From Bacteroidaceae bacterium (GTDB lineage Bacteria > Bacteroidota > Bacteroidia > Bacteroidales > Bacteroidaceae), in contig JAGCGS010000027.1 in NCBI GenBank assembly GCA_017649485.1, positions 1-60,095 on the forward strand: a DNA stretch of 60,095 nt, read 5' to 3'. Below are positions 38,172 to 48,007 of this stretch, piece after piece (within the stretch, counting starts at the first letter, position 1; the number at the start of each line of letters is the position of its first letter). Below the pieces are notes generated by a model. It saw nothing but the letters and a program-made list of their open reading frames with translations. It was not told the origin of the DNA and made no database searches. Both the position numbers and the translations under genes were made by a program.

Positions 38172-38320
38172 AAAGTCACCACTCTCCGTTTGCCATTGAC
38201 TATGCCTCATAGGCTGCTACTGGGATTACCATAAGCATTCGTTGAAAACAGTTCTTTGGTTTGAAACAATGGATACCAAAAAATAATGACAAGGGTATGT
38301 GGATATACCTAAGAAATGGG
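38172..38320. other. Short gene-free stretch after miaA
   Basis: About 150 nt with no gene or strong hairpin, followed by the orphan promoter at 38321-38352. Confidence 0.5.
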
Positions 38321-38352
38321 ATTGTGAGAGTTACGAAAAGGCACTAATTTTG
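38321..38352 (+). promoter_or_regulatory. Orphan promoter pointing at a terminator
   Basis: ATTG (38321-38324; one mismatch to TTTG), 20 nt, then TAATTTTG (38345-38352). No plus-strand gene follows. Confidence 0.6.
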
Positions 38353-38358
38353 CAGCAT

Positions 38359-38460
38359 CAGATTTAAATGAATTAGTTAGTCATAATTACGTAACCACTT
38401 TTATTAGGAAAGTAAAACAATCCTTGTAAATTCGATGGGAATCGAGATTACAAGGATTTT
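38359..38460 (+). ncRNA. Candidate small RNA of about 100 nt
   Basis: Predicted from the promoter at 38321-38352 and the strong hairpin with a U tract at 38419-38460. The interval has no usable reading frame. The transcript would be antisense to the last few codons of the LuxR-type gene (38448 onward). It could also be the leftover leader of a deleted gene. Confidence 0.4.
38419..38458. terminator. Bidirectional terminator at the end of the iron/redox cluster
   Basis: AATCCTTGTAA (38419-38429) pairs with TTACAAGGATT (38448-38458), extended by the inner TCGAT/ATCGA pair (38432-38445) with a 4-nt loop. It is flanked by TTTT on the plus side and a T-rich tail on the minus side. The stop codon of the LuxR gene lies in the stem. 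Confidence 0.85.
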
Positions 38461-39065
38461 CCTTTTTCAATATCTTTCAGCTCAACCAACTTATTGACGA
38501 TGGCATAGATGGTAAGACCTGCGGAAGAGTGAATCTGCAACTTGCGGGCGATGTTGCGACGATGTGTAATCACAGTATGGATTGAGAGGTAAAGCTTATC
38601 GGCAATCTCCTTGTTAGTGAGTCCCTTCACAACGAGGATGATGATTTCTTTCTCTCGCTGGCTCAACGACTCCTGCTCAATGTCCTTATCATCCTCGCTC
38701 TTCATCAGGGCATTCAGCTTCTCGGCAATGGTATCGGCAGAGTCATAGATGGCGATGGTGTCATGATAGTCCTTCAGCTGCTTGCTGTCAATAACACTGG
38801 CAATGACAGCCACAAACTTCATTCCACTGAGCTTGGGATGCGAGGTCTTGAACTCCGCAATATCGAACCATCCACCCAAAGTGGGGTCGATAATCATGAT
38901 GTCTGGCACCTGTGTCAGGGCATAGTTCTGCAAAAAATCGGTGTTGCTCACCTCCACCGCCTGAATATTCAAGTCGGGTATGCGCTTCAGAACCGCTGCC
39001 AAGCCGCTTCGGATAATCACCGATGAGGTGGCGACAATCACTTTCAGTGCATGATTATTGGCCAT
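38448..39065 (-). CDS. LuxR-type DNA-binding response regulator with atypical receiver
   Basis: The protein has 205 residues. The C-terminal HTH (134-196) is a clear LuxR/FixJ domain (LSQREKEIIILVVKGLTNKE, then HTVITHRRNIARKL). The N-terminal part (about 8-120) has the receiver pattern with Asp60 (IMIIDP) but the usual acidic pair is replaced by VATSS at residues 11-15, so phosphorylation is doubtful. It overlaps the hemerythrin gene by 11 nt, implying coupled production. I infer that it answers to the hemerythrin or another signal of the cluster. Its stop is inside the terminator stem. Confidence 0.88.
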   Translation of the reverse strand: MANNHALKVIVATSSVIIRSGLAAVLKRIPDLNIQAVEVSNTDFLQNYALTQVPDIMIIDPTLGGWFDIAEFKTSHPKLSGMKFVAVIASVIDSKQLKDYHDTIAIYDSADTIAEKLNALMKSEDDKDIEQESLSQREKEIIILVVKGLTNKEIADKLYLSIHTVITHRRNIARKLQIHSSAGLTIYAIVNKLVELKDIEKGKSL

Positions 39066-39756
39066 TTCTCAGTCTCCTTTCCAGCCTCATCACGGCAGGT
39101 ACAAACATATAATTCTCCACATCGCAATGAGCAATCAAATCTTGTTCGCAGTTGAATATGTCGAACAGGACAGAGTTCATCAGGTTGTTATTACCCTCCT
39201 CTGGATAGTATTTGATAATGATATTTTTCAGTTCCTTCAACTTGGCATCAATCTGATTATGCTTACTGCTATAGTCCACAATATTATATTTATCTGACAA
39301 CTTGCCCTGCAACAGTTGTTCCACATACTTAAACACCCATTTGTTTTCGTGTTCCATGTGGCGTTTCACTTCTTTGGCATAGTCATCGAAAAACTTCAGG
39401 ATAAGCACATCCACATCGTTAGCCGCAGAGAAGTCAAGAGCCTCAATAAGTTTACGGCGAATGGTGGGCAGGTTGAAATCCAGAAAATAGGCGTGGGCAT
39501 TTTTCAGGTAATCTATCAGCGAGGCAAGAGAAATCTGTTCATCGTCGTTGTAAGCCAGATTCCCTTCGTTGATAAAGTTGGCAACAGCCAGAAATGTATG
39601 GTAATCCACCCCTTGTTCTTTGCATACATCCTGTACAGTCTTATCGCCAAAGCCCAATTTAAGTCCGAAACGACTCATCACCATGAGCAGGGAGAAATTA
39701 TCCAAAATCAGGTCGCTCAACCTGTCAGTTGCCCTATATTTATGCTGCTTGTCCAT
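39055..39756 (-). CDS. YtfE/ScdA-like di-iron hemerythrin protein
   Basis: The 233-residue cytoplasmic protein has an N-terminal DUF542-like segment (LILDNFSLLMVMSRFGLKLGFGD, about 16-38) and a hemerythrin bundle. The potential ligands His88, His133, Glu137, His166, His210 and Glu214 follow the order and spacing of the E. coli YtfE site. The classical ScdA N-terminal Cys is not at the expected place, though Cys45 is near. YtfE/RIC proteins bind a di-iron centre and deal with nitric-oxide or oxidative damage to Fe-S clusters. The overlapping LuxR gene suggests a sensing role. Start ATG 39756 lies 6 nt after the RidA-like stop. Confidence 0.85.
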   Translation of the reverse strand: MDKQHKYRATDRLSDLILDNFSLLMVMSRFGLKLGFGDKTVQDVCKEQGVDYHTFLAVANFINEGNLAYNDDEQISLASLIDYLKNAHAYFLDFNLPTIRRKLIEALDFSAANDVDVLILKFFDDYAKEVKRHMEHENKWVFKYVEQLLQGKLSDKYNIVDYSSKHNQIDAKLKELKNIIIKYYPEEGNNNLMNSVLFDIFNCEQDLIAHCDVENYMFVPAVMRLERRLRNGQ

Positions 39757-39762
39757 AATAGT

Positions 39763-40896
39763 TTATAATACAGGAAAAACTTTATTCTCAAGTACTTTCA
39801 CACCCATACACTCCATCTCGACCAGCCAACCTGGACGGCATACTGGTGCATTGACAAACACCTTTGGTTTGTCAGGGAAACGCTCGTCATATAAAGCCTT
39901 TACCACAGCATAATCGGCTATATCACGCAGATACACAACCATCTGCTCCACCTCTTCGTATGTACAGTCAGCCTCTTTCAGTAACGTTTCCACATTCTCC
40001 CACACACGCAAGGTCTGCTGACGCACATCACCTGGATACATGATTTCGCCATGGTTATTGATGCTGGCAGTACCCGAGATAAACACCTGACGGCGATCGC
40101 CATAATCAACATAGGTACCACGCTCGAAGCTTACACCATATTCATAAGTGGGATTCAGGTGCGAACGACCATACAAATAATGAATCTGCTCACGCTGAAT
40201 GCCAGCCACAGCATAAGCATCAAACTGAACAAGTGTCTTGGGATTTGCCATTCGCCCTCCTATGCCCGTACTGGCAATGAAATGGGTTTCCGAATTAAGG
40301 CCTTGCGTAACAAACACCTCATTGCGGGCCTTCACCACACCTGCATAATTATTATCGATGTTCTGCACAAATATCCAAGTACGAATGCAGTTGTCGGCCA
40401 GTTTACATCCCTGCTCCATCAGGTTCATCGAATAATCGTTCAACAACAAACGCATTTGATATTCTGAGTTAGCAGCACGATTGTTATTACTGCCTGTCCA
40501 AATGTGACGATATGATCCATGCAGAGCCTCAAAGAGTCCATTGCTCAGCACCCTGGTTTGTACATCTGTAAGTAGGTAAGCCCACAAGGCAATCTTCGTA
40601 CCATCCAGCGGTGCCTGCTGCACGATAGACAAGGCACAACTGGAACCTTCTGTAGTCATGCCCAGCAGCAAATCCATCTGGTTGGTAGCATCACTCAGGA
40701 AATAACGCTTGAACACAGCCACAGCACCGGGCAGGCCAGCCAACGCCTCATCGTAGGCAGCCAGTAAAACATCGACTTGCTGTTGAAAAGCCAATGTTGG
40801 GTCGGTTACATGCACCATCAAGTGATACTCGTTTACGCCCTTTGTCTTAAATTCAGAAACCTCTACGATTGCTTTATCTAACAAAACTCTATTCAT
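39763..40896 (-). CDS. RidA-superfamily two-domain protein (chorismatase-like architecture)
   Basis: Start ATG 40896 (MNRVLLDKA); an in-frame TTG lies four codons upstream. The 377-residue protein has a C-terminal YjgF/RidA-type domain (about 240-375: RQVFISGTASINNHGEIMYP, then VRQQTLRVWENVETLLKEAD, VYLRDIADYAVVKALYDERF and PVCRPGWLVEMECM). The N-terminal half resembles no simple RidA and recalls FkbO/Hyg5 chorismatases, which combine two RidA-like folds. The reaction is therefore uncertain: imine deaminase or chorismate-type lyase. It sits between cytochrome and hemerythrin genes in the cluster. Confidence 0.7.
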   Translation of the reverse strand: MNRVLLDKAIVEVSEFKTKGVNEYHLMVHVTDPTLAFQQQVDVLLAAYDEALAGLPGAVAVFKRYFLSDATNQMDLLLGMTTEGSSCALSIVQQAPLDGTKIALWAYLLTDVQTRVLSNGLFEALHGSYRHIWTGSNNNRAANSEYQMRLLLNDYSMNLMEQGCKLADNCIRTWIFVQNIDNNYAGVVKARNEVFVTQGLNSETHFIASTGIGGRMANPKTLVQFDAYAVAGIQREQIHYLYGRSHLNPTYEYGVSFERGTYVDYGDRRQVFISGTASINNHGEIMYPGDVRQQTLRVWENVETLLKEADCTYEEVEQMVVYLRDIADYAVVKALYDERFPDKPKVFVNAPVCRPGWLVEMECMGVKVLENKVFPVL

Positions 40897-40931
40897 TATA
40901 ATTATCAAAGTTAATTTTCAAAATCCAATAA

Positions 40932-41666
40932 TCAATCATTTTTTGCTCCATGTGTAATCCACTGTCGTATCATTGACAGGATTCCTTCATCAACCACCTC
41001 GGCTGTATGGTTATAGTGCCAGGCATCAGTGATTGACACATCGGTTGACAGTGCCTCATATAACGCACTTTTTCCAGCATCACCAGGCTCCACAATATTC
41101 ATGCCCTCCAACTTCTTCGACGCAACTCCCACAATAGCCGAATGACTCTTCTCTGAAGTGAGATACAATCCTGCTGCGGCAGAAGTGGCTGACCCATGAC
41201 AGTTTACGCATGTAGTATTGAATACTCGCTCCTGAATGGTGTTATACATACCCACATGCAAAGTGCCTGCATCCACCTCAATATCATTGGATGAAGCAAG
41301 CTGGGTTTCATCTATCGTATAGAATGACACAATGTGCTTCCTCAAACGGTTGATGACACACAATTCCACACGTGTTACCTGCTCCTTGATGCCCGAGAGG
41401 ATGATGGTTATCTCATCGCCCTCAACAGTTGGAGCTGGCACCGACTTGTTTACCAGTGCATAGTCACTATCATCGTTGAAGCCTGCCAGCACCACATACA
41501 TTGATGGATCTGGCCAAGAGCTGATCCCTGTGAACCGAGCCGTGAGTTTCACCGTGCGTCCTTCAGGTGAAATGGGGGATTCGTGTTCGTTGAGTCGTCC
41601 GTCATCGCAAGCCTGAAATACCAAAAATGTCAATGAGCATGCAAATATAGTAATTATTTTCTTCAT
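40932..41666 (-). CDS. Mono-haem c-type cytochrome lipoprotein
   Basis: The start is set at 41666 (MKKIITIFAC), because the longer frame would overlap the porin gene and lacks a signal peptide at its start. The 244-residue protein has a lipobox-like VFQAC (Cys20) and one haem site CVNCH (153-157), followed by a short region containing possible axial Met (EGMNIVEPGDAGKSALYEAL), as in small c-type cytochromes. The first 130 residues are beta-rich without a recognised family. It is probably tethered to the periplasmic face of a membrane and could pass electrons to the di-haem protein of the cluster. Confidence 0.75.
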   Translation of the reverse strand: MKKIITIFACSLTFLVFQACDDGRLNEHESPISPEGRTVKLTARFTGISSWPDPSMYVVLAGFNDDSDYALVNKSVPAPTVEGDEITIILSGIKEQVTRVELCVINRLRKHIVSFYTIDETQLASSNDIEVDAGTLHVGMYNTIQERVFNTTCVNCHGSATSAAAGLYLTSEKSHSAIVGVASKKLEGMNIVEPGDAGKSALYEALSTDVSITDAWHYNHTAEVVDEGILSMIRQWITHGAKND

Positions 41667-41676
41667 AATTGTTAAT

Positions 41677-42888
41677 TTAGAACGAGTATTGCAACATAAT
41701 GGCTGCCGAATGGGTGGCAAGTCCCAGGTCATCGATATCTCTGTCAAGCTGAGTGGTATGTCCGGTTCGCCCGATATACTGATACATTGCCTGGAGCTTC
41801 ACATTGCTATTGGGGAAGAAATAGTTCACGCCTACAGCAGGCATGTTCAGCAAGCCTTTACGGTCGGTACCGTTGCGGTCCATCAGGTCATAACGCAGGG
41901 CAGCTTGCACGCGTGGTGCCACAAAATAACCGGCTTGCACATAGCCGCCCCAGTAGTTGAATCCATCGTCAATCTTCATGCGTTTGGTGAATCCCACATG
42001 CATGTAGTATGCCTCAGCGGCCAGATAAAGACGGCCTTTCAGCATCGCGAACTCCAGTCCTGCGCGGAAGTCATTGGTGCTTTCACTCTCGCTTTCCACA
42101 TTCAGTGAGGCAGATGCACCAAACAGAATTTTGTCCTCATTCAAACGCTTGGGATTACCCTGAGTAGCAGGCATCACGCCTTTAGGCATATATGTGAGAC
42201 GGCCAGCATACAGCAACGAAGGGATATGCCAATCATCGCTAAAGGTCTTACCTGCTGTATTGACTGATGCTCCTGTCCCATTGAAGATGCCAAACTCATA
42301 TCCCACCCTATTAAGTAAGCCGTGAATCTCGATGCCCAAGTCAAAACCCGTTCCGAAGATGGGGTTAACGGCATTCAACGCATGGGGCAGGATGACAGAT
42401 GAAGTAAGAGAGGTAGGCAATACAGGCATCAATGTCTCACCCAGCGTGGTGAGGTAGGCATGAGTGAATGGTGTCTTGAACTTACCAGCACGGATAGCGA
42501 ACTTCTCGCTGAAAGCATAGTCGAACCACACTTGTTGCAACAAGGCACCCCCACTACCAGCGGCATTGATGCTCAGGTTGAAAGTGAGTTTATCGAAGGC
42601 CTTGCCTGTAAAACCGAGAACTGCATAAGGGATAGAGAAGCCAGAATTAGCAACATTATCCTGGTTATATGCTTTATCAAGCCCTTGGTCATCATAATAG
42701 TTGAACTTTCCAGCCGCCTGCATCAGCAGATATGGCTTGAACACAAAGTCACCTTTCTTGGAGGCAATAGAGAATCCTTCTCTACCTGCTAGCGATACCA
42801 CACCATTGTCGGTATCTTCTTCGTATTGCGCCTGTGCGATCAAAGGCACAATCGCAACAGCAAATGCTAATAGTATTTTCTTCATCAT
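41677..42888 (-). CDS. OprP/OprO-type outer-membrane porin
   Basis: The 403-residue protein has a signal peptide ending in IAQAQ. The barrel has the phosphate-selective-porin pattern (IRAGKFKTPFTHAYL, then LPTSLTSSVILPHALNAVNP and GTGFDLGIEIHG) and ends with YSF, a typical C-terminal Phe. Substrate specificity cannot be read. It lies 9 nt after the di-haem oxidoreductase gene and 10 nt before the cytochrome gene. Confidence 0.85.
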   Translation of the reverse strand: MMKKILLAFAVAIVPLIAQAQYEEDTDNGVVSLAGREGFSIASKKGDFVFKPYLLMQAAGKFNYYDDQGLDKAYNQDNVANSGFSIPYAVLGFTGKAFDKLTFNLSINAAGSGGALLQQVWFDYAFSEKFAIRAGKFKTPFTHAYLTTLGETLMPVLPTSLTSSVILPHALNAVNPIFGTGFDLGIEIHGLLNRVGYEFGIFNGTGASVNTAGKTFSDDWHIPSLLYAGRLTYMPKGVMPATQGNPKRLNEDKILFGASASLNVESESESTNDFRAGLEFAMLKGRLYLAAEAYYMHVGFTKRMKIDDGFNYWGGYVQAGYFVAPRVQAALRYDLMDRNGTDRKGLLNMPAVGVNYFFPNSNVKLQAMYQYIGRTGHTTQLDRDIDDLGLATHSAAIMLQYSF

Positions 42889-42897
42889 AGATAATAT

Positions 42898-44337
42898 TCA
42901 CAGTGATTTTAGGAATTCAATTAAATCGTCACGCTCCTCCTTAGTCATATTCTTGAATATGTTCTTGGAAGCCTCGCCTTCACCTCCGTGCCACATAATG
43001 GCTTCGATGAAGTTGCGGGCACGCCCATCATGCAGGAAATAAGTATGACCATTCACCTTCTGCTGCAGGCCAATGCCCCACAGCGGTGTAGTACGCCACT
43101 CGTTTCCTTGTGCCAAGCCGCTGACATAGTTGTCATTCAGACCTACGCCCATAATCTCAGAGCCCATGTCATGTAGCAGGAAGTCGGAGTAAGGATGTAT
43201 CACTTGTCCGCCCAACCAAGGCAGTTCGGTGCCATTCAGCAACGTTGAGCCTCTGGGCTGGGTGTGCAGTGTGGTTGTATGGCATAGCTGACAAGAGGCT
43301 TTATAGAACATCCGTTCGCCGTGCTGTACACGAGGGTCGCTCACATTGCGGCGAGCAGGAACGCCCAGACTTTGCATGTAGAGATCCACATCTTCCATAT
43401 CTTCGGTAGAGACATCCAGCTGGTCATAGAGGAGTCCCATCATGCTTCCTTGGTATATTTGTCGTTGCCCTTCAGAGATTTCCTCTGGATAACGACTATT
43501 GGTCATTCCCATATCACTACTGAAACCCAGCTCTACAGTGAGGTCGGCATGCTGCGCCTTGTTGCCTGAAAGCCCCAATTGGCGTCTGCCTCGCTCATTG
43601 ATGTAGTTGGCCTTTCCGCTGATGCCAAACTCTGGATAGTTACTTTGACGTGCCAGCGCCTCTATCTCGTTGCGGTCAATTGCCATTATCTGTCCCATCC
43701 CCACATGACGCAACGGAATACGGACTGTGCAGAACAAGTCTTCAGGGGCAATGCTGTCGGCATACCATTCGTAAATCTCGTAATGGGGTTTGGCCAGCTC
43801 ATACTTCTCTCCATCAGGGAACTCGAATGTTTCAAACTCATAGGTCACTTTCAGCTTACCTTCTGGCTGAACACCATAGATGGCATTATCGTGAATCACT
43901 CGTCCATAGTCCTGGAAGAAAGCCCCATTCTTGCGGGTAATGTAAATCAGCGCAGAGGTAAAGCCATATGTTCCCGAACCGCCTTGTGTCCAAAGCGTAG
44001 GTTCTGTGCGTCCGGCATTCCTATGGCAACTGCCACAAGAATAGCCGGCATACACAGGACCCAAACCACCATTATGCCCATTATGGTTGGTGCTTTTCAC
44101 ATTGTCGTACAGGCGGTCACCACGATTGAAACGGGTATCATATACTCCTGAAACCCACCTGGATGGCTGGTCGTACGCCACAGCGGAATTAAAGAAAACT
44201 GTTGATGTACCGGCTGACAAGGCATAGCCAGCTGGTACATCTATATCCTTCGCCACTATCTGGTCGCCCGTTTCATCGCAGGCAATCAGCACGATGGATA
44301 AAACCGCCAACAGGAAGAAGTAGATGTGTTTTATCAT
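42898..44337 (-). CDS. Di-haem oxidoreductase (DUF1111, thiol-oxidoreductase-like) lipoprotein
   Basis: The 479-residue protein has a lipobox VLIAC (Cys20). Two haem motifs are present, CGSCH (101-105) and CQLCH (349-353), with the family segments GPVYAGYSCGSCHRNAGR and HYFLHDGRARNFIEAIMWHGGE-like end (in blocks). DUF1111 proteins are found with imelysins in iron-related loci, and an electron-transfer or metal-redox role is likely. It starts 1 nt after the imelysin stop, showing tight coupling. Confidence 0.9.
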   Translation of the reverse strand: MIKHIYFFLLAVLSIVLIACDETGDQIVAKDIDVPAGYALSAGTSTVFFNSAVAYDQPSRWVSGVYDTRFNRGDRLYDNVKSTNHNGHNGGLGPVYAGYSCGSCHRNAGRTEPTLWTQGGSGTYGFTSALIYITRKNGAFFQDYGRVIHDNAIYGVQPEGKLKVTYEFETFEFPDGEKYELAKPHYEIYEWYADSIAPEDLFCTVRIPLRHVGMGQIMAIDRNEIEALARQSNYPEFGISGKANYINERGRRQLGLSGNKAQHADLTVELGFSSDMGMTNSRYPEEISEGQRQIYQGSMMGLLYDQLDVSTEDMEDVDLYMQSLGVPARRNVSDPRVQHGERMFYKASCQLCHTTTLHTQPRGSTLLNGTELPWLGGQVIHPYSDFLLHDMGSEIMGVGLNDNYVSGLAQGNEWRTTPLWGIGLQQKVNGHTYFLHDGRARNFIEAIMWHGGEGEASKNIFKNMTKEERDDLIEFLKSL

Positions 44338-44338
44338 A

Positions 44339-45574
44339 CTAATCCAATATCTTTTGCATAAAAGGCTTCAGCTCTTCTGTGAGCAGCGATTCCAAATTTC
44401 CGCAGGCATCCATAGCGGCTTTGGCCTCAGCACTATTGATGTTATTACGGAAAGGCTGAGGGATGGCCTGAATGGCATCGGCAGCTGCCTGAATAGCCTG
44501 CTTTACCTTCGTGTCGAAAACCTCATCAACCTTCTTAACCAAAGCCGAAAGAGACTTTTCATTCACATTTCCATCCAATGAACCATAGTAAGCGTTGCGG
44601 ATGGAATATATGTTATTGGTATAGTCATCGCGGGAATGCCAACTGTACCAAGACTCTACAGCATAGAGTGCCTCTTCGGTCTTGCCATCCTCATACAAAC
44701 TCACAGGGTCACCAATCTTGGATGCACCCACCTCACTGGCGATGTCAGCACAACCATCGATAATCTGCTCGATGCAGTTGATGGCACTATTGAAGCCCTC
44801 TGTACCATCGTGCGCCTTAAATATTTCAGCATAGCTTTTGCCTCCATTGTAAGACACGCTCCAGTCAGCATATAATGTGTTGGCATCAGCACGCAACAGG
44901 GCTGATACGGCTTGCATATAGTTAGCCCAAGCATCTTTATTGGCATCGGCATACTCCATAATATTGGGGTTGGTAGAACTAGTAGTAGCAGAAATTGTAC
45001 GAGGCTCGCCATCCTTGAATGCCAGGTACTCCAATGTATGGAAACCCCGAACACTCTGTACTGCCTCGATATTTTCATCATCCTCATCATAATCACCAGT
45101 CCATTCCAAAGCAGCCCAATCGGCTGAGTTCAGTATGGCAGCAATAGATACCTGGTCAAGCGGCCAACTGTCCATGTTAGGGTCAAGACCTTTGTCTGCC
45201 ACAGGACCAAATAAGAATGCCTCACTTGATTCCCAAGGTTCGCGGGCATCCAGCCATGCAATGGCGACATCTTCAAAAGCAAGGTCAGATGGAGCCTCAC
45301 GGAACTTCTCAACAGCCTTGTTCAACGCTTCGTTCTTCTCTGCCAGCGCCTTATAGGTGGGCAGCACCACCCCATCCACATACTGAGCAACCGCAGCACT
45401 CAAATCTTCCTCTGTCACAGATACAGTGGGTGTTGGTGTAGGAGTAGGTGAAGGTGTAGGCATTGGTGTTGGTGTAGGAGTTAGTGTAGGAGCTGGTTCA
45501 TTCTTGTCTCCTCCACAAGCGGTCACAGCAAATGCCAAAGCAAATGCCATCATACTGTAAACGATCTTCTTCAT
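44339..45574 (-). CDS. Imelysin (M75) family lipoprotein
   Basis: The 411-residue protein has a lipobox TAC (Cys20) and a Thr-Pro repeat linker (about 30-50). The imelysin domain has REPWESSEAFLFGPV (111-125) and the conserved GxHxxE as GFHTLE (177-182), which in the family binds metal. Imelysins (IrpA, EfeO-like) are iron-regulated and linked to periplasmic iron handling. The linker DNA is a hexamer tandem repeat (45428-45490), so its length could vary without frameshift. It pairs with the DUF1111 gene. Confidence 0.92.
   Translation of the reverse strand: MKKIVYSMMAFALAFAVTACGGDKNEPAPTLTPTPTPMPTPSPTPTPTPTVSVTEEDLSAAVAQYVDGVVLPTYKALAEKNEALNKAVEKFREAPSDLAFEDVAIAWLDAREPWESSEAFLFGPVADKGLDPNMDSWPLDQVSIAAILNSADWAALEWTGDYDEDDENIEAVQSVRGFHTLEYLAFKDGEPRTISATTSSTNPNIMEYADANKDAWANYMQAVSALLRADANTLYADWSVSYNGGKSYAEIFKAHDGTEGFNSAINCIEQIIDGCADIASEVGASKIGDPVSLYEDGKTEEALYAVESWYSWHSRDDYTNNIYSIRNAYYGSLDGNVNEKSLSALVKKVDEVFDTKVKQAIQAAADAIQAIPQPFRNNINSAEAKAAMDACGNLESLLTEELKPFMQKILD
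45428..45490. repeat. Hexamer microsatellite encoding the Thr-Pro linker
   Basis: About ten imperfect copies of GGTGTN (plus strand) encode alternating Thr-Pro with occasional Met or Ser. Slippage by whole units would lengthen or shorten the lipoprotein tether in frame. Confidence 0.7.
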
Positions 45575-45599
45575 ATATTTCTATTTATTAATAAATTTT

Positions 45600-45627
45600 C
45601 AATAGTTAATGGTTAATGATTAATGCT
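45600..45627. repeat. Heptamer repeat, four units, over the porin stop
   Basis: CAATAGT, TAATGGT, TAATGAT, TAATGCT in 7-bp phase; the porin stop codon (45620-45622) lies inside. Confidence 0.6.
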
Positions 45628-46966
45628 TAAAAAACCATCCTGCATACGCAATGCCAATATTGAACTCATTCTCACTATTATAACCCGTTGAGCCAAATAC
45701 TTTTTGTGTACCAATCTGACGGGTAGTAAAGTCTGCCTTCACTACTAAATTGGCTAATGGCTTCCAGTTCAAACCCACACGCCACATACTCACTTGGCAT
45801 CTCACATCGGCTGTTTGTCCCTCATCCATCACCTGTTGAGGATTATAATATTCATAATGAGCAAATGGAATCACTTCAGGAAATTTATCATTCTTGAAAA
45901 ACGATTTTACCCTCACACCCAAATCTGCACTGTAGGTCAGTGCGCCAGAAGCAAAAGGCGCTTTGCGTCCATAGGGCGATAGTTTGGAGTAGCTATTGTT
46001 GATGCGCGTGATGCCTGCAGCATGGCCCACATGACCACTTTGAATGTTGCCTTTTACTATAAAAAAAGGATTGTTGTATTCTCCATCGATGTTCCAAATA
46101 CGCACAGGAATCTTGCCCAATGAGGTGTAGGTGCTCAGTTTGTCGGCATTGCCTCCAGCATCGTTTATAAAATAAAACGATCCTCCGATTCGCAAACCAG
46201 GCACACCTACATAGTCTAAACGGGCTACCCATGCTGGTGAAGTGAAGTTATCCAATTCAAAGAGATTCTGGCGTCCACCTTTCACCCAATCATATTTACT
46301 GAAACCATTGGGATTCAAGCCTGCCACCACCATAGCCTGATAGCTGAAGGTGCTATAACCCTTTCCAATTGTACCAAAGAGAGATATACCGGTTTCATGC
46401 CAAGTGGATGGGAACATTGTAGTTTCACCCTCAGGGCGTGTGGTACCAAAGAAATTGACCGGCTCATGATGTGCGTTTGTCAATCCTACAGGCAGTACAA
46501 GATGTCCTGCGCGAATATTAAACTCGCGAGTGATGAGGCGAGTGATATGGAACTGCTCCAGCGCCACTTCTCCACCTTTTTCAAACTCCTGCTCATATTC
46601 ACCATTCTCACTTCCTGTGCCAGTTTCTAATTCATAGGCTGTCCCAACCCCACCTGACTCAAACTCAATCTCCGCTCCCAATATCCATTTGGTTGACAAC
46701 TTATAGTCGAGTGCCAATACAAATCGGGGAATCGCTACCTCAGCATGGTTCTTCTTGCTGTTGCCTACAATAGATCCATTCCAACGGTTCAAACCATAGT
46801 CTTTCCAAGAAGCATACATCTCGCCATAGCCTCCAAAACGGAAACGCCAGTCGCTTTCATAGTCTGTTGTTACCGACTGATATTTGTTTACTTGATGACT
46901 ATTTTGTGCATTCAAGCCTTTGATTACTATACAACAAAGTATGAATAATGTCAAAATTCTATTCAT
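45620..46966 (-). CDS. Outer-membrane beta-barrel porin, first gene of the iron/redox cluster
   Basis: The 448-residue protein has a signal peptide ending in GLNAQ. The segments FRFGGYGEMYASWKDYG, EIEFESGGVGTAYELETG and FNIRAGHLVLPVGLTNAHHE are typical of Bacteroidetes porins, ending in WFFKH. No precise family is assigned and the cargo is unknown. The gene lies 45 nt upstream of the imelysin gene and has the likely promoter of the whole cluster. The last residue and stop fall within heptamer repeats. Confidence 0.75.
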   Translation of the reverse strand: MNRILTLFILCCIVIKGLNAQNSHQVNKYQSVTTDYESDWRFRFGGYGEMYASWKDYGLNRWNGSIVGNSKKNHAEVAIPRFVLALDYKLSTKWILGAEIEFESGGVGTAYELETGTGSENGEYEQEFEKGGEVALEQFHITRLITREFNIRAGHLVLPVGLTNAHHEPVNFFGTTRPEGETTMFPSTWHETGISLFGTIGKGYSTFSYQAMVVAGLNPNGFSKYDWVKGGRQNLFELDNFTSPAWVARLDYVGVPGLRIGGSFYFINDAGGNADKLSTYTSLGKIPVRIWNIDGEYNNPFFIVKGNIQSGHVGHAAGITRINNSYSKLSPYGRKAPFASGALTYSADLGVRVKSFFKNDKFPEVIPFAHYEYYNPQQVMDEGQTADVRCQVSMWRVGLNWKPLANLVVKADFTTRQIGTQKVFGSTGYNSENEFNIGIAYAGWFFKH

Positions 46967-46992: not shown

Positions 46993-47023
46993 CAAAGGTA
47001 GGATGAATCTAAATAGTCAGAAA
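46993..47023 (-). promoter_or_regulatory. Probable promoter of the eight-gene iron/redox cluster
   Basis: On the minus strand, TACCTTTG (47000-46993) is a perfect -7, and TTTC (47023-47020) at 19 nt is a one-mismatch -33. The ATG follows after 26 nt. I cannot identify a Fur box with confidence. Confidence 0.55.
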
Positions 47024-47108
47024 TACCTATTTGTGGTTAAAAGGGGATGTAGGGTTAATAAGTAATGGGTATAATGGAATGAAGGGGACTGGAGAAAGGG
47101 GATAATAA

Positions 47109-47138
47109 AATCAGGGGACTGGAATCAGTCCCCTGATT
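47109..47138 (-). terminator. Terminator after purU
   Basis: AATCAGGGGACTG (47109-47121) pairs with CAGTCCCCTGATT (47126-47138), a perfect 13-bp stem with a 4-nt loop. On the minus strand it is followed by TTTTATTAT, so it ends the purU transcript. Confidence 0.85.
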
Positions 47139-47149
47139 GGTAAGAAGCT

Positions 47150-48007
47150 TTAGTTGAAAATCACCGTTTTATTTTTATACGTTAGTATCTTGCGCTCAAT
47201 ATGCTTCTGCACAGCTCGCGAGAGGACTATCTTTTCGAGGTCTTTGCCCTTGTTTACCAAAGTTTCAATGGTGTCCTTATGGGTTACCCGCACCACATCT
47301 TGCTCAATGATAGGACCTGCATCCAGCTCTGTGGTAATGTAGTGAGCAGTGGCACCAATGATCTTCACACCACGTTCGAAAGCGGCATGATAAGGCTTGG
47401 CACCCACGAAAGCCGGCAGGAATGAGTGATGGATATTGATAATCTTATGGCGATATTTCTCAATCATCTGTTCAGAGATAACCTGCATATAGCGTGCCAA
47501 GACGATAAAAGTAACACCATTATCACGCAGCAATTGCATCTCACGCTCTTCTTGCTCCGCCTTGTTTTCCTTAGTGATGGGCAGGCAATGATATGGGATG
47601 CCAAACTGCTCAGCCACATGTCGCATATCCTCATGGTTGCTGATAATGAGTGGTATCTCCACATCCCACTCCCCAGCACTATACCTTGCCAGCAGGTCAT
47701 AGATGCAATGCGACATCTTGGATACGAATATCGCCATGCGAGGCTTCTGGTCGGAGAAGTAGATGCGGAAATACATGCCATATTTCTGGCCATAGAGGGT
47801 GGCAAAGAAGTCTTCTATCTTCTCTTCAGGAATAGCAAAGCCCTCCAGCTCCCACTCTATACGCATAAAAAAGATGTTCTCTACCCTATCAACATATTGA
47901 TCTAGATAGATGATATTGCCTTGGTTGACCGTAATAAAGTTAGTGACATCTGAAATGATGCCAGGGCGGTCAGGGCAGTGCAGTAGTATAATAGCCGTTT
48001 TTTTCAT
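47150..48007 (-). CDS. purU: Formyltetrahydrofolate deformylase
   Basis: The 285-residue protein has an N-terminal ACT domain (LLHCPDRPGIISDVTNFI) and a C-terminal formyl-transferase fold with NIHHSFLPAFVGAKPYHAAFERG and ATAHYITTELDAGPIIEQ. PurU releases formate from 10-formyl-THF. It overlaps the upstream peptidase gene by 4 nt and ends the operon at a strong terminator. Confidence 0.95.
   Translation of the reverse strand: MKKTAIILLHCPDRPGIISDVTNFITVNQGNIIYLDQYVDRVENIFFMRIEWELEGFAIPEEKIEDFFATLYGQKYGMYFRIYFSDQKPRMAIFVSKMSHCIYDLLARYSAGEWDVEIPLIISNHEDMRHVAEQFGIPYHCLPITKENKAEQEEREMQLLRDNGVTFIVLARYMQVISEQMIEKYRHKIINIHHSFLPAFVGAKPYHAAFERGVKIIGATAHYITTELDAGPIIEQDVVRVTHKDTIETLVNKGKDLEKIVLSRAVQKHIERKILTYKNKTVIFN

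Follow-up and report, generated by a model that had tools for sequence, protein, structure and literature searches.

A candidate iron-scavenging envelope operon with its own hemerythrin-LuxR regulator in a Bacteroidaceae bacterium

Why should an operon for envelope proteins carry a di-iron hemerythrin and a LuxR-type regulator of its own? The question is raised by contig JAGCGS010000027.1 of a Bacteroidaceae bacterium (assembly GCA_017649485.1; genome 2.6 Mb, 83% completeness). The window analyzed here is this entire contig, 60,095 nt, and the operon occupies positions 38448-46966. Its eight same-strand open reading frames (ORFs) encode, in order of transcription, a predicted envelope protein (P1), an imelysin lipoprotein (IM), a DHOR/DUF1111 di-haem lipoprotein (DH), a Porin_O_P outer-membrane protein (P2), a one-haem lipoprotein (CY), a chorismatase-like enzyme (RI), the hemerythrin (HE) and the regulator (LX). 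We consider it probable that this envelope operon serves to scavenge iron and is activated by the di-iron hemerythrin-LuxR regulator encoded within it. As far as sequence goes, the operon, its promoter element, the ligands of HE, natural fusions of HE to a helix-turn-helix (HTH) domain and the co-occurrence of element and HE are all in place. The layout reported in a first-pass annotation, with gaps of 45, 1, 9, 10, 35 and 6 nt and a final 11-nt overlap, was confirmed by the coordinates, using ATG starts at 41666 and 40896.

HE (39055-39756, minus strand) matches hemerythrin family PF01814 at 40.3 bits and has a RIC-like build. In an alignment of 62 HE proteins, H88, H133, E137, H210 and E214 are present in all 62 and H166 in 61, while C45 is invariant. 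We take these six His and Glu residues to be the di-iron ligands, and the conservation of their columns places HE among the hemerythrins with a di-iron site. RIC/YtfE iron-sulphur repair proteins carry the ScdA_N Cys pair. HE was rejected as a protein of that kind, since it scores 53 bits against TIGR03652 (cut-off 204.7) and no Cys occurs at columns 30-44 in the 62 proteins. LX (38448-39065, minus strand) is a LuxR-type (GerE) regulator with a pseudo-receiver, matching PF00196 at 62.6 bits. Among 38 LX proteins, the phosphoacceptor position is Asn in 34, Asp in three, the window's LX included, and Ser in one; the window's LX keeps the Asp, yet lacks an acidic residue at column 13 that is present in the 37 others. 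With no receiver family reported and Asn prevailing at this position, LX was rejected as a two-component response regulator, and with no autoinducer domain reported by Pfam, as a quorum-type LuxR protein.

The two genes belong together well beyond this operon. Fusions of HE with an LX-type HTH occur in 25 proteins, and of 33 HE loci that were fetched, most of them lying away from imelysin genes, 26 have LX immediately after HE, five have the fused form, one has the reverse order and one has LX alone labelled. Twenty HE-LX pairs from other genomes, many in distant families and picked because both partners appeared among the matches listed, are separated by -2 to 85 nt. The genome of the window has a single HE match at E 1e-15, that of the operon itself. 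The arrangement of a hemerythrin gene followed by, or fused to, a LuxR-type regulator gene is that of the CdhR type, and the window's LX is thus probably CdhR-like. The proposal of the first-pass annotation that a hemerythrin-LuxR sensor pair sits in an iron-linked envelope operon therefore gains support, as the families co-occur elsewhere, the fusions exist and strong iron regulation is on record for a locus whose products bear the same names.

The operon promoter lies at 46993-47039 on the minus strand, is real and extends further than the segment first annotated (46993-47023). It reads TAAC-N8-GGTATT-N21-TACCTTTG, one mismatch from a rigid promoter element, TACC-N8-GGTATT-N21-TAnnTTTG, which is new here and is conserved in the P1 upstream regions of relatives. 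In the operon it comprises an operator-like inverted repeat that ends at the -33 region, 21 nt ahead of the -7 box. TAGGTATT, allowing at most one mismatch, stands 21 nt ahead of TAnnTTTG in 35 of 46 P1 upstream regions, a set that omits the split P1 of L059, and 22 nt ahead in one more. Its exact form occurs in 28/46 P1 upstream regions versus 7/112 control upstream regions of the same loci. The full element within three mismatches is found in 38/46 P1 and 24/60 HE upstream regions (shuffles, 0.15 each). The TACC-N8-GGTA layout is presumably that of a NarL 7-2-7 site; a site of this type suits a GerE HTH. We infer HE-LX to be its reader.

A second copy of the element (38306-38352, plus strand; one mismatch) is of the HE-promoter type and points toward the 3' end of LX. 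The GGGATTG form that it shows is also found in the HE upstream regions of L137, L144 and L151. One might speculate that this copy was once the promoter of HE-LX and stayed in place when the pair was turned into the operon, as the remnant of an HE-LX module that became inverted; alternatively, it is perhaps an antisense promoter.

To what genes is the element attached elsewhere? Across 295 Bacteroidales genomes, 113 exact sites (counted by eye) were found in 69 genomes, and the reversed pattern gave none. By coordinates, no fewer than 20 of these exact sites are just upstream of FeoB places, among the FeoB places listed. In 30 inspected loci with exact sites, ten sites precede FeoAB-like ORFs, one of these FeoAB being confirmed by Pfam; in L256 the exact element is the promoter of the HE-LX operon itself. 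A looser form gave 70 matches in 16 genomes versus 10 for its reversal. Inspection of 40 regions, 39 from these 70 and one from another scan, revealed genes for DUF2023, flavodoxin, TetR, a methyltransferase, HmuY, a TonB receptor and pyruvate formate-lyase behind the sites. Pfam was run on nine proteins behind element sites and gave a family for eight; a guess of DUF4374 for L208:2307-3530 was dropped, as Pfam gave no family. In Bacteroides and Phocaeicola (L222, L225, L223 and L224), the element also stands ahead of pyruvate formate-lyase and a gene with a CCG domain (LutA-like), which suggests that other carbon enzymes take over when iron is low.

At feoAB the operator is far more frequent where HE is present. 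With at most one mismatch, 26 of 40 HE-bearing genomes have it there versus 1 of 40 without HE (p 1.2e-9; shuffles, about 0.5), or, counted by family, in 13/23 versus 1/33. The genomes were taken in rank order among the FeoB places listed; three without HE were excluded for contig edges (G129, G057 and G045), and G157, G032 and G251 formed part of a second batch. Presence of HE was called by eye at E <= 1e-15, so the positive set may include hemerythrins without LX. By coordinates, some 2 kb separate HE from FeoB in G264, G023, G164, G257 and G219, and in many loci HE is a neighbor of the imelysin operon.

The association of HE with the envelope genes was examined in relatives. RI was searched in the 295 genomes and gave a strong match (E < 1e-80) in 24, the window's among them. 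From these, 24 stretches were taken, 23 from strong-match genomes and one holding a fragment in G059, and several keep the order P1-imelysin-DHOR-P2-CY-RI. In L031, L034 and L036, HE-LX follows RI as in the window, L034 ending at a contig edge. A second survey scanned named genomes of Bacteroides, Phocaeicola, Prevotella and others and kept the best 80 RI loci; here, as for the P1 and HE upstream regions, locus counts include related species. Imelysin and DHOR occur together in 33 of these 80 loci, and the 33 clusters contain P1 in 33 cases, CcsBA in 30, and P2, CY and HE in 21 each. HE is thus present in 21/33 clusters (four HE-LX pairs and 17 fused) versus 3/47 other RI loci, 12 of which have less than 6 kb upstream, and the link of the hemerythrin to the imelysin cluster is real. 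The gene order is above chance, because it recurs in other Bacteroidales families. P2 and CY are absent from 12 of the 33 clusters, where CcsBA usually precedes RI. The cluster neighbor of 632-747 aa proved to be a ResB-CcsA fusion in seven of ten neighbors scanned; the 747-aa ORF of L136 was rejected as CcsBA. The window's cluster is without CcsBA, and the single cytochrome c assembly match of its genome sits on another contig. In L062, L064 and L077, HE-LX is convergent with the cluster and downstream of it.

The first-pass annotation knew of no described system of this kind. Both halves are in fact in print, separately, in the portions of the literature cited here. As excerpted, PMC10434189 (Lewis and Gui 2023) describes B. 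thetaiotaomicron BT2473-BT2482, a locus that iron depletion raises 62.7- to 323.7-fold and that also goes up in colitis, with products that include peptidase M75, thiol oxidoreductase, porin, hypothetical proteins and CcsA, and with an HTH regulator, BT2482, inside the locus. Peptidase M75, thiol oxidoreductase and porin are common to this locus and the window, by product name and not by sequence. The excerpts name neither HE-LX nor a chorismatase-like gene there, whereas the window has both; conversely, the locus includes CcsA, and the window has no CcsBA. The same excerpts report that iron depletion raises BT0519-BT0520, a hemerythrin and a regulator that resemble PG1236 and CdhR, 16.3- and 20-fold, and they note a fused form in P. 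intermedia. In the portion of PMC10101095 used here, CdhR activates the hmu genes (hmuYR) of P. gingivalis, and cdhR drops under microaerophilic conditions. These systems (PG1236-PG1237, BT0519-BT0520 and the P. intermedia fusion, as excerpted) resemble the window in having a hemerythrin gene followed by a LuxR-type regulator gene, and in L141, L142 and L159 we read flavodoxin or DUF2023 genes near HE-LX. In the window, by contrast, HE-LX lies inside an imelysin operon, and the likeness drawn here is one of gene arrangement. Linkage of imelysin to DUF1111 is on record for Fur-regulated proteobacterial clusters such as PA4370-PA4373 (PMC3143127, in part). These share with the window an imelysin and a DUF1111 di-haem protein in an iron-linked setting; beyond what the excerpt gives for them, the window adds a porin, a one-haem lipoprotein, a chorismatase-like enzyme and HE-LX, and its relatives add CcsBA. 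An open-access literature search found no paper that joins the imelysin operon to the CdhR half and none that gives the operator or element, which is no proof of absence.

We propose that P1, the porin, the imelysin lipoprotein, the di-haem DHOR and the one-haem lipoprotein would, judging by their families, form an iron-capture device with a redox step. When iron is scarce, the di-iron site of HE may empty or change state. LX would then bind TACC-N8-GGTATT beside the -33 region, 21 nt ahead of the -7 box, and turn the operon on; since HE-LX genes sit in the operon that they would activate, positive feedback would follow. Direct binding by LX, iron as the signal, activation and iron capture are thus the putative parts of this scheme. 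A broader possibility, to which we give a little less than an even chance, is that hemerythrin-LuxR is a general iron-sensing activator of Bacteroidales, split or fused to a NarL-type HTH, that reads TACC-N8-GGTATT, placed 21 nt ahead of the -7 box, at feoAB, hmuY, flavodoxin and imelysin-operon promoters and does much of the work done elsewhere by Fur. The conserved ligands, the natural fusions and the defined element open the question to direct testing in B. thetaiotaomicron and suggest that, in a major lineage of the gut, a hemerythrin serves as an iron switch. The operon would be an uncharacterized iron system, and its counterpart by name ranks with the loci that are strongly induced in that lineage.

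Several observations weigh against an iron-scavenging operon under HE-LX control. Within two mismatches, the window's own genome holds seven element matches versus three in the reversed control, so that only two one-mismatch sites, both in the window, stand out. Several sites elsewhere lie before genes without an evident iron link or inside ORFs, 12 of the 33 clusters have no HE within the locus, and the counterpart in B. thetaiotaomicron is matched by product names, not by sequence. By genome, the link to HE is moderate: an HE match accompanies the exact element in 56 of 69 genomes, leaving 13 without one, versus 139 of 226 genomes that lack the element (p 0.002). None of the seven families containing genomes both with and without HE is separated by the feoAB operator (at most one mismatch), as both kinds carry it in f39 and neither does in the other six; because no mixed family separates them, shared ancestry may explain the feoAB contrast. 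The 13 genomes and the mixed families also suit a different account, in which the operon is part of an iron regulon, but some other regulator, Fur-like or of another NarL type, reads the element and HE-LX is just one of its targets. The element does stand ahead of several HE genes, as expected for a target, and the published locus has BT2482 as an HTH regulator. We nevertheless find this account rather unlikely, in view of the feoAB contrast across the 80 genomes, of the presumed NarL layout of a site that would be met by the NarL-type HTH of LX, and of the activation of hmuYR by CdhR.

The signal itself could be another. The CdhR literature, as excerpted, names nitric oxide (NO), tyrosine phosphorylation and oxygen as well, which also weighs against iron. 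If HE sensed oxygen or NO, the operon would be a redox or NO-stress envelope system with indirect iron effects. HE resembles the RIC/YtfE di-iron proteins, a cited title ties CdhR to NO stress, and the drop of cdhR under microaerophilic conditions (PMC10101095, in part) fits as well. The positions of the element ahead of feoAB, hmuY and flavodoxin genes and the strong iron-depletion induction in print (PMC10434189, as excerpted) argue the other way, and we regard this account as rather unlikely as well.

RI (39763-40896, minus strand) has a C-terminal RidA-type domain (PF01042, Ribonuc_L-PSP, 73.2 bits). Against the FkbO/Hyg5 chorismatase model TIGR04444 it scores 45 bits, below the cut-off of 325. 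A profile of RI matches the chorismatases Hyg5 (PDB 5ag3, E 2.9e-11) and FkbO (4bps, E 1.1e-7), and many RidA-type proteins too, so that it differs from Hyg5/FkbO in both respects. The likeness lies in the C-terminal YjgF-type domain and in residues: E360 corresponds to the catalytic Glu-334 of Hyg5, and G211, G275 and C353 to the three CH-II subfamily residues named for Nat-Hyg5 (PMC7170507, in part), the G211 pairing resting on a weak stretch of the alignment. None of the four varies in alignments of 21 and of 34 RI proteins. RI may make a 3-hydroxybenzoate-type compound in an accessory role, the weakest step of the scheme; the product of a chorismatase is not settled by sequence, as the excerpted part of PMC3949708 warns.

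RI is, by its distribution, only loosely tied to the cluster. In the tree built from 103 RI proteins, copies from clusters are intermixed with solo ones, with 25 context changes, at least 18 of them forced, versus 34.2 in shuffles; here and in the element count, solo copies include loci cut by contig ends. The nearest kin of the window's RI, L055 and L056, are both solo, and they adjoin a miaA-like gene (named by reading), as does the window's cluster. The element occurs within two mismatches in 0/56 solo RI upstream regions and within three in 1/56, and the imelysin clusters L136, L137, L138, L171 and L175 are without RI. RI was accordingly rejected as a constant member, and the eight genes cannot be held to be one fixed unit, as the first-pass annotation had them; its families do recur together in other Bacteroidales, with RI not a fixed partner. 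It is very doubtful, then, that RI is integral, with the operon supplying its lipoproteins with a chelator, reductant or shuttle derived from chorismate. Such a role would fit the conserved catalytic Glu and Hyg5-type residues, the position of RI after CY or CcsBA in many clusters, in distant families too, and the number of context changes, which is lower than in shuffles. The presence of RI in all 33 clusters is by construction, because they were found through RI, and solo copies are common (47 of the best 80 loci, 12 of these with less than 6 kb upstream); together with the RI-less clusters and the element-free solo copies, this speaks against it.

Other settings of RI were also seen. In L047:2199-8090, RI lies between a gene for an 818-aa protein with two CXXCH motifs and a CcsBA gene, without imelysin, which is another cytochrome context, and in L031:4058-7736, HE-LX is flanked by two RI genes in one operon. 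In Prevotella (L094, L095, L098, L106, L113, L116, L124 and L126), solo RI often comes after a low-scoring LuxR gene and a group of conserved ORFs, about 565, 340, 150 and 385 aa long; these LuxR genes (for example in L098, 62 bits) were not counted as LX. G059, a genome in the window's genus, has only broken or partial RI (L054:9064-9783).

The envelope genes all lie on the minus strand. P1 (45620-46966; 448 aa) is the first cluster gene in 33/33 cluster loci; it matches no Pfam or NCBIfam family and nothing in PDB, and is predicted to be porin-like by reading of its sequence. Of the two porins first annotated, only P2 (41677-42888) is thus confirmed, matching Porin_O_P (PF07396) at 194.4 bits; P1 may be the other. 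IM (44339-45574) is an imelysin of the Peptidase_M75 family (PF09375, 190 bits versus a cut-off of 23.5), with the GxHxxE motif present as GFHTLE, and it matches the B. ovatus imelysin (PDB 3n8u) at E 1e-128 in two stretches. DH (42898-44337) belongs to DHOR/DUF1111 (PF06537, 225.5 bits versus a cut-off of 22) and has CXXCH motifs at 101 and 349. CY (40932-41666) has one CXXCH, and its best family, PSCyt1, reaches 20.2 bits, below the cut-off of 22. A Pfam search covering these eight operon proteins found no EfeU (Ftr1-type) permease among them, and the operon was rejected as an EfeUOB iron importer.

The operon ends in a terminator hairpin (38405-38465, minus strand) of -22 kcal/mol (z -6.0; none of 200 shuffles was equally good), which bears out the strong terminator annotated earlier. 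A generic sigma-70 and terminator consensus scan of the window listed neither the operon promoter nor this terminator, and it ran at background, with 20 promoter-like sites versus 17.5 in shuffles and seven terminator-like sites versus 6.9. At 47109-47138, past the neighboring gene (47150-48007), lies a strong terminator-like hairpin, one arm of which is partly repeated just downstream.

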